38,542 bases of DNA. Origin: an uncultured Erysipelotrichaceae bacterium (GTDB taxonomy: Bacteria > Bacillota_I > Bacilli_A > RFN20 > CAG-826). The stretch lies in assembly GCA_902802905.1 (NCBI GenBank), contig CADCNT010000016.1:1-38542 (forward strand), read 5' to 3'. The notes below the pieces were generated by a model. That model made no database searches. It was given only the letters and a program-made list of their open reading frames with translations, and was not told the origin of the DNA. The translations under genes and the position numbers were made by a program. Below, one piece after another: positions 10,083-28,150 of the stretch; the first letter of the stretch is position 1; each line of letters begins with the position of its first letter.

Positions 10083-10190
10083 TTTGTTTAAGTTTGAGGC
10101 TCCAATATACAGTGAGAATAAATGCTTTATTTCTTCACCTCGGTAACATTATTAAGACTAAACATCCGTTACTGTCTTGGGTATATTAGA
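10083..10190 (-). ncRNA. Ribosomal protein L10 leader
   Basis: The minus-strand sequence between rplA and rplJ contains AAGACAGTAAC and, after a short hairpin region with CTTAATA, GTTACCGAGGTGAAG. GTAAC and GTTAC form a stem. This arrangement is diagnostic of the L10 leader of Firmicutes, which binds the L10(L12)4 complex to repress rplJL when it is in excess. Confidence 0.85.
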
Positions 10191-10201
10191 ATCTGTTTTG
10201 A

Positions 10202-15355: not shown

Positions 15356-15727
15356 TTACACTCTTTTATCTCCGACCCACAGCACATTATTGCAGGAGTC
15401 ATAGGAGATATTAACACTACCAATCCACATTACTTTATTAATGCTGTTGTATTCAATTTTAGTGCTACCTACCCACATCAGTTGCCCGTTTGAGTAGTAT
15501 TCAAATTTTGTATCACCAATCCACATCACTTTGCCATCGCTGTAATAAGAAATATGAACATTACCAAGCCACATTAATTGTCCGTTTGAATAATAGCTCA
15601 TACTGTCACCATCATGACCAGCAATATATAGATTTAATCTTTCATCTAAATATAAGGAGTTGCGACTATCAACTAGAATTGGTACTTTACCAGAATATCC
15701 ATCACCAAAAGAAAATAGTTTAATCAT
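15356..15727 (-). CDS. Small protein of five 16-residue beta-type repeats
   Basis: A 123-residue protein. From about residue 44 to the end it consists of five consecutive 16-residue units with consensus YYSxGxxMWIGxxxIS (for example YYSNGQLMWLGNVHIS and YYSDGKVMWIGDTKFE). The spacing and aromatic/Gly pattern resemble MORN or YD-type beta-hairpin repeats but I cannot assign a named family. There is no signal peptide or membrane segment, so it is probably cytoplasmic. The last two units have drifted and carry single cysteines. AAGGAG precedes the ATG. Function unknown. Confidence 0.8.
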   Translation of the reverse strand: MIKLFSFGDGYSGKVPILVDSRNSLYLDERLNLYIAGHDGDSMSYYSNGQLMWLGNVHISYYSDGKVMWIGDTKFEYYSNGQLMWVGSTKIEYNSINKVMWIGSVNISYDSCNNVLWVGDKRV

Positions 15728-15759
15728 GTTTAAATCTCCTTATTACTTAATGCGCATAT

Positions 15760-15789
15760 ATTATAACACAACAGGACAAAACATGTCCT
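15760..15789 (-). promoter_or_regulatory. Promoter with inverted repeat for the 16-residue-repeat gene
   Basis: A minus-strand TATAAT (15760-15765) lies 32 bases before the ATG. The inverted repeat AGGACA-N5-TGTCCT (15773-15789) lies between it and a poorly conserved -35, where a repressor could bind. Confidence 0.45.
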
Positions 15790-15792
15790 CAC

Positions 15793-16350
15793 AACCCCTA
15801 TTGACAGGGTTATATCATATTGGTGCATTGGAACCCAGTGAATGTCATCTTGCTGATGGCTGGGGCCTAACCAAGTAAGGAGATAATGTGGGATGCTGCA
15901 TTATGTCCAAGACCACTACTTGTGGTTTCCGATATTGATTTATCGCTTTGGTTAGTGGCGCAAATCGCTCTAGTGAAATAAACGACTATTAGAACAGGCA
16001 CGACAAGAGGCTCTACAGCAATGTATCCCACGTGATGATGTTAGCCTGAGAAACTAACATCTACGTTCTCAAAAGAAGTGTGCGGCTTGATGGTAGGCAA
16101 CTACCTATAACTGCTTTAATAGGTTTAAGTAGGGGAACGCCGGATGATAGCTTAAGTGCATCGCACAGAAATTATGATCCGCTGAAGCTCCCTGAACATT
16201 GAAGGATACCGATTCCTTCCAAGGTTACGGCTTATGCCCATTCTGGAAGCATTAGGGTCGCTCCCTCTTGCTCAGCCCAGCGTGCTTGTGCGTGAATAAT
16301 TAACGGAGTAAGGTTTGTATGGCGAAGGTCAACAATGCCTTTTTTTATTT
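15793..16350 (+). ncRNA. Candidate large structured non-coding RNA
   Basis: About 500 bases here have no gene, are visibly richer in G+C than the surroundings and are packed with hairpins. CTAACCAA (15867-15874) pairs with TTGGTTAG (15948-15955) and encloses three hairpins (GATAATG/CATTAT, ACCAC/GTGGT, CGATA/TATCG). The loop of the first, GTGGGAT (15888-15894), can pair with ATCCCAC (16025-16031) as a pseudoknot. Downstream are GATGTTAG/CTAACATC, GGTAG-GCAA-CTACC with a GNRA loop, GGATGATA/TATGATCC enclosing GTGC/GCAC, and GAAGGA/TCCTTC. AAGGTTTGT/ACAATGCCTT plus a T-run near 16309-16350 could terminate a plus-strand RNA. The GNRA loop and G-U pairs favour the plus strand. Ends are approximate and the family is unrecognised. 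Confidence 0.6.
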
Positions 16351-16576
16351 TTGCAAACAAAAAACATCCATTAAGGATGTCTAATGCTGATACCTCGAAT
16401 ATATCAGCGAAAGTATTAACAACGTCAATACTTCCGGTGCCATTATTTTCAATGCGACGTAAGTTACGTACACTATATCCAATAATGTCGGCTAAGCCCT
16501 CCTGAGTTAGGTTATGACTTAACCTTAGGTTCTTGATGGACTTGCCAATCAAGTGCGAATCAATTAATTTGCTCAT
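16232..16576 (-). CDS. XRE-family transcriptional regulator
   Basis: A 114-residue protein. Residues 8-70 form a Cro/C1-type helix-turn-helix (SIKNLRLSHNLTQEGLADII, then a recognition helix GYSVRNLRRIEN). AGGAGG precedes the ATG by 6 bases. The promoter has an inverted repeat in the -35/-10 spacer, suggesting autorepression. The last 35 or so codons lie antisense to the 3' end of the candidate structured RNA and share its higher G+C. The C-terminal tail may therefore be a recent addition or a truncation product. Confidence 0.85.
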   Translation of the reverse strand: MSKLIDSHLIGKSIKNLRLSHNLTQEGLADIIGYSVRNLRRIENNGTGSIDVVNTFADIFEVSALDILNGCFLFAKIKKGIVDLRHTNLTPLIIHAQARWAEQEGATLMLPEWA

Positions 16577-16664
16577 AACTACCTCCTAATAATTGATCTC
16601 TGTTTTCATGTTTCGACCGAAGGTCTAGTAGTTTGATTCGCTTGGTAGCTTTATGAGCGTGATT

Positions 16665-16694
16665 ATTATATATCTTAATTAAAGATATTCTCAA
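16665..16694 (-). promoter_or_regulatory. Promoter and operator of the XRE gene
   Basis: On the minus strand TTGAGA (16689-16694) and TATAAT (16665-16670) are 18 bases apart. The inverted repeat ATATCTT-N5-AAGATAT fills the spacer, a typical site for self-repression. Confidence 0.65.
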
Positions 16695-16701
16695 GATGTT
16701 T

Positions 16702-26501: not shown

Positions 26502-28010
26502 CTAGTGTTCTTCTTTCATTTCATGCTTACGTTGATACATTTTCTGATCCGCTCGATTAAAAACGTCATCTACACATGTATCAACCTTAGGGTCATATTC
26601 TGCATAACCAATCGCTGCAGAAATTCTTTCATATTGAGGAAGTTTTTGATTATTGATTGAGTCTATAATCCTTTCATTGAACTCCGTAATTAGTTTTTCA
26701 GAGTTATCATAGTCTTCCCCTCTTAGGAAAGTAACAAACTCATCTCCGCCAAAACGATAGACTGGAGAATGTTTAAATGTTAAAGAGATGATACTCGCTA
26801 ATCTGATAAGAGCCTCATCTCCTGCCGAGTGACCAAATTCATCGTTAGTAACTTTTAAATAATTAAGGTCAATCATTGCTACTCCAAAGGCAATATTTTC
26901 TTTGTTAGCAATCTTTTCGTTAATACGTTCTACTTCTGAGTGATATGCAATCTTACTTTGTACACCCGTAAGAGCGTCTTTATTAGCGATTGCGGTAATC
27001 CTTGCAGTTTGCTTTTCACTTTTGCTTAAAGCTTCGTTTACTTCCACGAGTTCGTTAATTCTTTGCACCACTCCATCTTCCATGGTTTTAATCGCTTCAG
27101 ATAAATCATTAAGTTCATCATGAGATTTCACTTTCATATCTACGAAGTTTTGATGTGACGCTTTTGGATCGTTATTATTAAATGATTTCGCAACATTAGT
27201 GATGGTCTTCAGTGGTATAGAGAACATAAAGTGCACGATAATTAGGCCAATAATACCAAGTAAATTGATAGTGATAATCATATAGACAAACAAACGGATA
27301 ATACTACTAGCTTGTTTCGCTCTTACTGCAGTCATTGAAATATTTGCACATGAGAAACAGTTATCAGTTCCTTCTATATAGCTTCCAGCAGAAACCACAT
27401 ATCCATCATCAGAATTAGTGATGAAGTATGCCGGAAATCCTTTAGAAGGGTCATCAATCACTTTCGTGTAATGATTATATAAAGGATCTAGCCAACCTGG
27501 ATTATGGTCATGATGGGTGTGAAGTAAAGATACACAAGCGTATTGAGTGTTACCACTTACATCAGTGTAACTATATAGGTACGTTAAATGCATACAAGTA
27601 ACATCAAATGACTTATTGGCGTCCACTAAATCAAGTAAGATAGCATCAATACGATTAAAGGCATTTTGGAAATCAGTGTCACTTTCTAAAATATCAAAAT
27701 AAGCCATATAGGTGGTGATTTTAGCTTTATCTTTATCATTAGATAAGGCTATCTCATTAGCAGGGATAGTATCTAAGATAGATTTAACTTTATCTTTTAA
27801 CAATGTGACATCATTTTGATCAACCACTTTAGATACAGTCGCAGTTAAGTTATTAGCGTAGCCCGCGAAAGTCTCTTTATTACGGTTAGACATCACCATT
27901 GAATAGTAAGTCATGGCGATTTCTACAATCACTAAAGAGAAGACGAAAATAATAATTGTAGTCTTTAGTAAGATTGGGAACTTAAATTTTCTTTTCTTTG
28001 ATGCGGTCAT
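26502..28010 (-). CDS. Membrane-bound diguanylate cyclase (GGDEF)
   Basis: The protein is 502 residues from the ATG at 28010. An in-frame extension upstream to 28079 would begin with TTG inside the riboswitch and run through its terminator, so I reject it. Layout: TM1 11-35, extracytoplasmic sensor about 40-235, TM2 238-262, HAMP-like linker and coiled coil about 263-340, GGDEF domain about 341-502. The GGDEF motif at 421-425 is intact, so synthesis of c-di-GMP from two GTP is expected. The RxxD inhibitory site is absent (Phe and Ser at those positions). The sensor has a His/Asp cluster (HTHHDH, 164-169) and Cys218-x-x-Cys221, possibly metal- or redox-sensing. No Shine-Dalgarno is obvious. 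Confidence 0.92.
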   Translation of the reverse strand: MTASKKRKFKFPILLKTTIIIFVFSLVIVEIAMTYYSMVMSNRNKETFAGYANNLTATVSKVVDQNDVTLLKDKVKSILDTIPANEIALSNDKDKAKITTYMAYFDILESDTDFQNAFNRIDAILLDLVDANKSFDVTCMHLTYLYSYTDVSGNTQYACVSLLHTHHDHNPGWLDPLYNHYTKVIDDPSKGFPAYFITNSDDGYVVSAGSYIEGTDNCFSCANISMTAVRAKQASSIIRLFVYMIITINLLGIIGLIIVHFMFSIPLKTITNVAKSFNNNDPKASHQNFVDMKVKSHDELNDLSEAIKTMEDGVVQRINELVEVNEALSKSEKQTARITAIANKDALTGVQSKIAYHSEVERINEKIANKENIAFGVAMIDLNYLKVTNDEFGHSAGDEALIRLASIISLTFKHSPVYRFGGDEFVTFLRGEDYDNSEKLITEFNERIIDSINNQKLPQYERISAAIGYAEYDPKVDTCVDDVFNRADQKMYQRKHEMKEEH

Positions 28011-28012
28011 AG

Positions 28013-28041
28013 CAAATAAAAAATCGGCATAAGCATACCGA
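28013..28041 (-). terminator. Riboswitch expression-platform terminator
   Basis: The minus strand reads TCGGTAT-GCTT-ATGCCGA followed by TTTTTTATTTG, between the c-di-GMP aptamer and the diguanylate cyclase ATG. A separate hairpin, ACTACGTT/AACGTAGT, lies between aptamer and terminator and could help switching. Confidence 0.85.
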
Positions 28042-28069
28042 CAAACCACTACGTTTAAACCAACGTAGT

Positions 28070-28150
28070 ATAGGTGCAACTGGCTGCCCGATATTTCAGG
28101 GCCCTTTAGCTTTGCGTCGCCGAATTACTCCGGGTTTGCCGATATATTGT
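28070..28150 (-). ncRNA. Cyclic-di-GMP-I (GEMM-I) riboswitch aptamer
   Basis: The minus strand has the diagnostic GEMM-I order: CGGCAAACCCG, then GGCGACGCAAAGCTAAAGGG, then CCTGAAATATCGGGCAGCC, ending near GTTGC. GACGCAAAGC and GGCAAACC are near-invariant in this class. It lies directly upstream of a diguanylate cyclase gene with a terminator in between, so c-di-GMP most likely controls transcription of its own synthase. Confidence 0.93.

Follow-up and report, generated by a model that had tools for sequence, protein, structure and literature searches.

According to the available text of a cryo-EM study, ROOL RNAs form cages; their function is given there as unknown, and they are described from prophages and phages, often near tRNAs (PMC12286853). 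A further study, as far as its available text goes, reports ROOL members that form a hexamer and an octamer and also mentions non-prophage locations (PMC12412911). GOLLD is likewise presented, in the available part of the former source, as a phage-linked RNA, large and ornate, whose cage differs from that of ROOL (PMC12286853). In Lactobacillus salivarius UCC118 an abundant lncRNA of the megaplasmid is a ROOL with a length of 520 nt by circular RACE, for which deletion mutants were made; a small HTH gene lies downstream, and the authors suggest in the available text that its product might affect ROOL expression or stability (PMC5643018).

The locus described here lies in a window of 38,542 nucleotides from an uncultured Erysipelotrichaceae bacterium (GenBank assembly GCA_902802905.1, contig CADCNT010000016.1, positions 1 to 38,542), a term that denotes the whole stretch of DNA analysed. 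Its RNA resembles the solved ROOLs in its full match to the family model, in its covarying helices and in its length near 520 nt, but the copy in the window is chromosomal and comes with a predicted operator and with an XRE gene that converges on it. With the ROOL of L. salivarius it shares the length of about 520 nt and a small HTH gene close to the 3' end, whereas the HTH protein of L. salivarius is by eye unlike the XRE protein of the window and is encoded codirectionally with ROOL instead of convergently. The GGACA palindrome described below is absent upstream of the L. salivarius ROOL. By eye, another long inverted repeat, TTTATGCAAA...TTTTGCATAAA, is found upstream of that ROOL (L012 43800-44000, pMP118), and this repeat might be the site of the L. 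salivarius HTH protein. GOLLD and the RNA of the window are both large and ornate, but the ROOL stretch has no match to the GOLLD model of Rfam.

A complete ROOL RNA gene

The first-pass annotation of the window had proposed a candidate large structured RNA at 15793-16350, had named ROOL first among the possible families and had called for an Rfam search. In the covariance-model search of the window, the Rfam family ROOL (RF03087) matches the + strand within 20 bp of that span with 205.8 bits (E 3.1e-45), covering model positions 1-574 of 574 and exceeding the gathering score of 99.1 more than twofold. The stretch is a complete, full-length ROOL RNA gene and as such belongs to a known family of non-coding RNAs, the solved members of which form hollow cages (Table 1). 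GOLLD, OLE, HEARO and an intron-like element, which had been considered as alternatives, were discarded along with group I and II introns, as no Rfam family other than ROOL matches at 15600-16700 even up to E 1. The elevated G + C content noted at the first pass was borne out as well, with 0.44-0.47 over ROOL vs about 0.33-0.37 on both sides in 300-bp windows.

Table 1. Features of the ROOL-XRE locus in the window
Feature	Position	Strand	Remarks
Predicted XRE operator AGGACA-AAACA-TGTCCT	15773..15789	+	17 bp, exact palindrome; conserved before ROOL
Predicted -10 TATCAT	15813..15818	+	23 bp after operator; predicted start near 15825
ROOL RNA (RF03087)	15825..16345	+	About 520 nt; predicted start; Rfam match 15810-16351
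U tract, presumed transcript end	16339..16346	+	T run after P1 3' strand
XRE/HTH regulator gene	16355..16576, open frame on to 16232	-	Conserved 74-codon core
5' leader of XRE mRNA	16577..16660	-	Conserved; no Rfam match
Leader element	16633-16641	-	Able to pair with codons at 16555-16563
Leader loop element	16644-16648	-	Able to pair with ribosome-binding region 16577-16583
Leader hairpin element	16654-16659	-	
Predicted XRE promoter TTGAGA-18-TATAAT	16665..16694	-	Scan match; 11/12 consensus matches

Single-sequence folding of 15825-16345 yields -165.4 kcal/mol (z -2.65), and 2 of 100 shuffled sequences fold as well; the folding energy alone is modest support, and the proof comes from the covariance-model score and from covariation. 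The latter was assessed with RNAalifold in an alignment of 17 ROOLs, comprising the window copy, the second copy of the same genome and one sequence each from 15 other genomes, with those of G223 and G295 being nearly identical. At least one two-sided compensatory change was found in 78 of the 123 consensus pairs, with a covariation term of -26.9 kcal/mol. A lack of covariation among homologues had been named at the first pass as evidence against a structured RNA; given the covariation observed, a decayed protein gene at 15810-16351 is very unlikely.

The long-range closing helix, which had been put at 8 bp, exists as the outer helix P1, but its covarying core comprises only 6 bp (alignment columns 2-7 with 539-544). 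One of its pairs changes from C-G to U-A in four sequences, and two further pairs change from G-C to A-U and from G-C to C-G, again in four sequences each; in the window, P1 has one mispaired base at its inner end. The GNRA tetraloop reported earlier is present at about 16093-16106 (GGTAG-GCAA-CTACC), and its loop reads G(C/T)(A/G)A in 17/17 alignment rows by eye. As to the plus-strand terminator of the first-pass annotation, a U tract does follow directly after P1, but the terminator scan lists no hairpin terminator on the + strand at the ROOL 3' end. In the ROOLs of G028, G130, G392, G223 and G295 (L064, L073, L080, L081, L082) there is no U tract right after P1; these transcripts may therefore undergo 3' processing or extend beyond this point. 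The stretch is also nearly but not entirely gene-free, since a minus-strand ORF (16232-16576) enters the 3' end of ROOL, its conserved part stopping near 16363.

The source genome, a 1.54-Mb draft in 25 contigs, carries a second ROOL copy, which scores 215.9 bits and is located where contig C19 ends. Within the genus, ROOL is present in 3 of 19 genomes in a total of four copies, with the copy in the window having the lowest score.

Co-occurrence of ROOL with a convergent XRE gene

The gene converging on the 3' end of ROOL codes for an XRE protein of the family HTH_3 (PF01381, 32.4 bits, cut-off 23). Its nearest relative with a solved structure is PezA, an antitoxin that also acts as a repressor.

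A scan of genome contigs with the XRE alone, using an alignment of three sequences as query, led to four loci (L008 and L010 being contigs of G014 and G004, respectively), and ROOL adjoins the XRE gene convergently in 4/4. Among 196 genomes of the family, the XRE search returned 11 matches of at least 99 bits in 10 genomes, the next best reaching 39.6. Of these 11 loci ten were scanned, eight of which have ROOL within short flanks; as for the remaining two genomes, ROOL is about 2.2 kb off in G028 and resides on a different contig in G130, where the XRE gene has an in-frame stop. The eleventh match begins 92 bp from the end of contig C4 of G000, and because the second ROOL likewise is near a contig end (C19) the two may be neighbours.

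In an independent DNA search with a ROOL as query, 12 of the 196 family genomes were found to harbour ROOL, namely all 10 XRE-positive genomes as well as G039 and G159, and a strong XRE match occurs in 0/184 ROOL-negative genomes (p = 3.6e-15, Fisher's exact test, a value that overstates independence as the genomes are related). By comparison, ROOL stands beside generic HTH genes in 0/20 loci. In G039 the ROOL is cut by a contig end and preceded by a perfect operator, and the draft has no close XRE; G159, whose ROOL is full length (211.7 bits), has no XRE, and no operator within 2 mismatches was found in 9 kb near this ROOL. G045 additionally contains a fragment of ROOL, the operator of which has one mismatch.

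Among 395 genomes of the class, 13 XRE matches in 12 genomes pass 1e-12. ROOL is close to XRE in 5/5 genomes of the order outside the family (G457, G515, G392, G223, G295), and it is absent from the stretch fetched around XRE in the distant G350, G477, G456 and G275; most ROOL loci of this set were located through XRE. Searches of named phage and plasmid collections returned only XRE matches under 60% identity, and in viral contigs (IMG/VR) there was one weak match of 31 residues and the ROOL-XRE module was not seen.

A predicted palindromic operator at near-fixed distance from the -10 of ROOL

Upstream of ROOL, a consensus palindrome MGGACA-N5-TGTCCT is found in 17/17 loci with at most one mismatch in 10 half-site positions (G457 being one with a mismatch), while the next best site per region has 3 to 5. 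In the window it is the sole full operator match, with 0.03 expected, and the source genome has only two such sites, one per ROOL. A whole-genome search of 16 genomes with the pattern MGGACN7GTCCTC revealed 13 forward sites, of which 11 are located at ROOL. All 13 belong to the 10 XRE-positive genomes, and the XRE-negative genomes have no such site (0/6). The ROOLs of G028 and G130 were first located via this pattern, and the ROOL DNA search then found the same places. In the distant G350, G477, G456 and G275 the palindrome lies upstream of XRE itself, and a second operator copy is placed 23 bp before TATACT in G275 and G456, in G275 before a 728-codon gene. As the XRE family still has the palindrome where there is no ROOL nearby, the DNA site follows the protein family, even one without the RNA.

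In 13 of 17 loci the best TATAAT-like hexamer follows the operator at a distance of 20-23 bp, usually 22-23 bp, compared to a mean of 2.9 loci and a maximum of 8 in 2000 sets of shuffled sequences. In the four loci in which the automatically chosen -10 is elsewhere (G014, G004, G030, CAMCEE), a weaker hexamer can be seen by eye at 20-22 bp. Agreement with the -35 consensus is poor (1 to 4 of 6 matches), the 4/6 being reached by CTCACA in three loci. Given the -10 hexamer of the window, ROOL would start near 15825, where P1 begins, and the predicted RNA of 521 nt agrees with the 520 nt given for the L. salivarius ROOL in the available text of that report (PMC5643018). The sequence TTGACA at 15801-15806 was considered as the -35 and discarded, since its distance to the -10 is 6 bp and several loci lack it; with the following possible -10, transcription would begin inside helix P2.

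With the predicted starts, the operator would be centred near -42, at a near-fixed distance from the -10 and together with a poor -35, which is the layout of a class II activator. Phage lambda offers a well-known counterpart, in that the HTH dimer CI binds a 17-bp site at OR2 whose centre is near -42 and which overlaps the weak -35 of PRM. The predicted operator of the window has the same size and position relative to a weak -35; in contrast to lambda CI, the target here is the gene of a structural RNA and the XRE protein comprises just the HTH, with about 74 residues.

Pairing within the XRE leader

Two helices can be drawn for the leader of the XRE mRNA, one involving the ribosome-binding region and the second involving early codons (Table 1). 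The first 11-12 sequences, with leader regions that were picked after the sequences had been seen, were tested with 20000 permutations. For the ribosome-site helix, swapped pairs equal or beat the own pairs in 22 of these by energy and in 121 by helix length, and for the coding helix in 0 to 26; an earlier, broader test of leader pairing gave 59 of 20000. A further set consisted of nine sequences, of which one near-duplicate was dropped. In the remaining eight, the ribosome-site helix was not significant (11974 of 40320 permutations), and the coding helix was significant (81 of 40320) but at other positions. With the later test being mixed, the apparently covarying pairing of the leader is best regarded as a lead. 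A complementarity between ROOL and the XRE leader was also considered and discarded, as the GGTAG/CTACC likeness in the window is by eye absent from G004.

Genomic setting of the ROOL-XRE unit

The ROOL of the window sits in an ordinary chromosomal stretch, with rpoB, rpoC and genes for ribosomal proteins and Trk uptake as neighbours by eye. There are no tRNAs in the window, and within it a prophage setting is unsupported; no DNA relatives were found in named phages and plasmids. Six proteins of the window were scanned, the XRE protein matching phage regulation families and two Trk-like proteins matching families of unknown function. The flanks of the three modules found in the genus are unrelated, DNA similarity being confined to the ROOL-XRE unit. 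The trkA gene next to the module of the window is present in 18 of the 19 genomes of the genus, and in 0/17 other genomes is a MORN-like ORF or XRE found within 1.5 kb of trkA (some flanks being shorter). ROOL, operator and XRE gene together are a unit found at different chromosomal sites.

The window contains two further structured RNAs, a ribosomal protein L10 leader at 10108-10199 (-) with 46.9 bits (gathering score 44) and a c-di-GMP-I riboswitch at 28072-28150 (-) with 50.5 bits, the latter directly upstream of an ORF (26502-28079) that by eye is GGDEF-like.

Elsewhere, the second ROOL copy (L005 9743-14253) adjoins genes for a TnsA-like nuclease and for a helicase matching the defence protein DdmD (E 1e-40), with its operator placed between the divergent nuclease gene and ROOL. 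The ROOL-XRE unit of G004 (L006 2047-18251) is found among AbiEi/AbiEii, Fic and TIR-type defence-like genes (E <= 1e-4), and in G028 ROOL and XRE are separated by a gene with a TIR domain (TIR_2, ThsB_TIR; L046 5871-6698). Defence models match at E <= 1e-20 in 3 of 30 neighbours of other ROOLs, drawn from 104 listed neighbour ORFs and mostly the nearest ones, vs 0 of 10 proteins of the window. Because of these counts, a defence-island setting for ROOL, striking as it is for G004 and the second copy, is not established.

Proposed control of ROOL by the XRE protein and alternative readings

On the basis of these sequence comparisons we conclude that the ROOL of the window would be the dedicated target of its partner XRE. 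It is quite probable that the ROOL gene and an operator bound by a dimer of the convergent XRE, which controls ROOL, make up a unit that occurs at different chromosomal sites and whose transcript forms cages. ROOL would be transcribed from a promoter with a weak -35, which is overlapped by the operator of 17 bp with its centre near -42. A dimer of the small XRE protein is predicted to bind this operator and would, like lambda CI at PRM, more probably switch ROOL on than off. The transcript of about 520 nt would then fold into the conserved ROOL structure, closed by P1 and ending in the U tract, and, judging from the precedent of the family, would self-assemble into a homo-oligomeric cage.

Readings diverge on the sign of this regulation. 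As the operator overlaps the -35, repression would fit too: the XRE protein would cover the -35 and silence ROOL pending release by a signal, in the manner of phage repressors. Operator and -35 abut and overlap, the CTCACA found there in three loci agrees with the consensus at 4/6 positions, and the repressing antitoxin PezA is the nearest solved relative. A near-fixed 22-23 bp to the -10 together with a poor -35 (1 to 4 of 6) is, however, typical of activated promoters, so that repression appears rather unlikely and the XRE protein is more likely to be an activator of ROOL than a repressor. A different host regulator might instead own the palindrome, with the XRE gene being a hitch-hiking neighbour, and the palindrome is indeed missing from XRE's own promoter region in the closest relatives; nevertheless, this reading is improbable in view of the absence of the site from 6/6 XRE-less genomes, its near confinement to ROOL in the XRE-positive ones and its position upstream of the XRE gene in distant relatives without a nearby ROOL.

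That the palindrome, instead of being a protein site, forms a hairpin in RNA or terminates transcription coming from upstream is more improbable still. While a hairpin of 6-7 bp can be drawn and the scan scored a minus-strand terminator, the outer pair is non-complementary in G113, G030, G068, G223 and G295 (CGGACA...TGTCCT), mostly no + strand T run follows the palindrome, and its spacing to the -10 hardly varies. Equally hard to credit is a decayed, silent ROOL in the window: its score, the lowest of the four copies in the genus, and the inner-end mispair in P1 would point that way, but the model match is full length and both operator and U tract are intact.

Taking the XRE protein as an activator, one can go a step further and regard ROOL here not as a phage accessory standing on its own but as the output of a compact, movable and self-regulated cassette, in which the XRE activator reads about one operator per ROOL and drives the cage RNA, and its own mRNA is held back by a leader that pairs with the ribosome-binding site. 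For this extended view we consider the arguments for and against to be evenly balanced.

Implications

The RNA itself is of a known kind, whereas the dedicated regulator with its operator, as predicted here, is the new part and is well supported by sequence. Among the matches listed in the literature search there is no published account of an XRE/operator partner for ROOL, the 2017 paper naming ROOL lying outside that search. An HTH partner had been hinted at before, as a possible role for the HTH gene was suggested in the available text of the L. salivarius paper (PMC5643018); conservation, operator and geometry of such a partner were not found in the literature searched, among the matches listed.

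Few natural RNAs are known to build cages, ROOL being among them. A dedicated regulator whose target in the genome is essentially a single one would tell when ROOL is wanted. The XRE protein would supply an on/off switch for testing the function of ROOL, as well as a route to more ROOLs. If the cassette reading holds true, ROOL cages would be made on demand, in answer to whatever engages the XRE protein.
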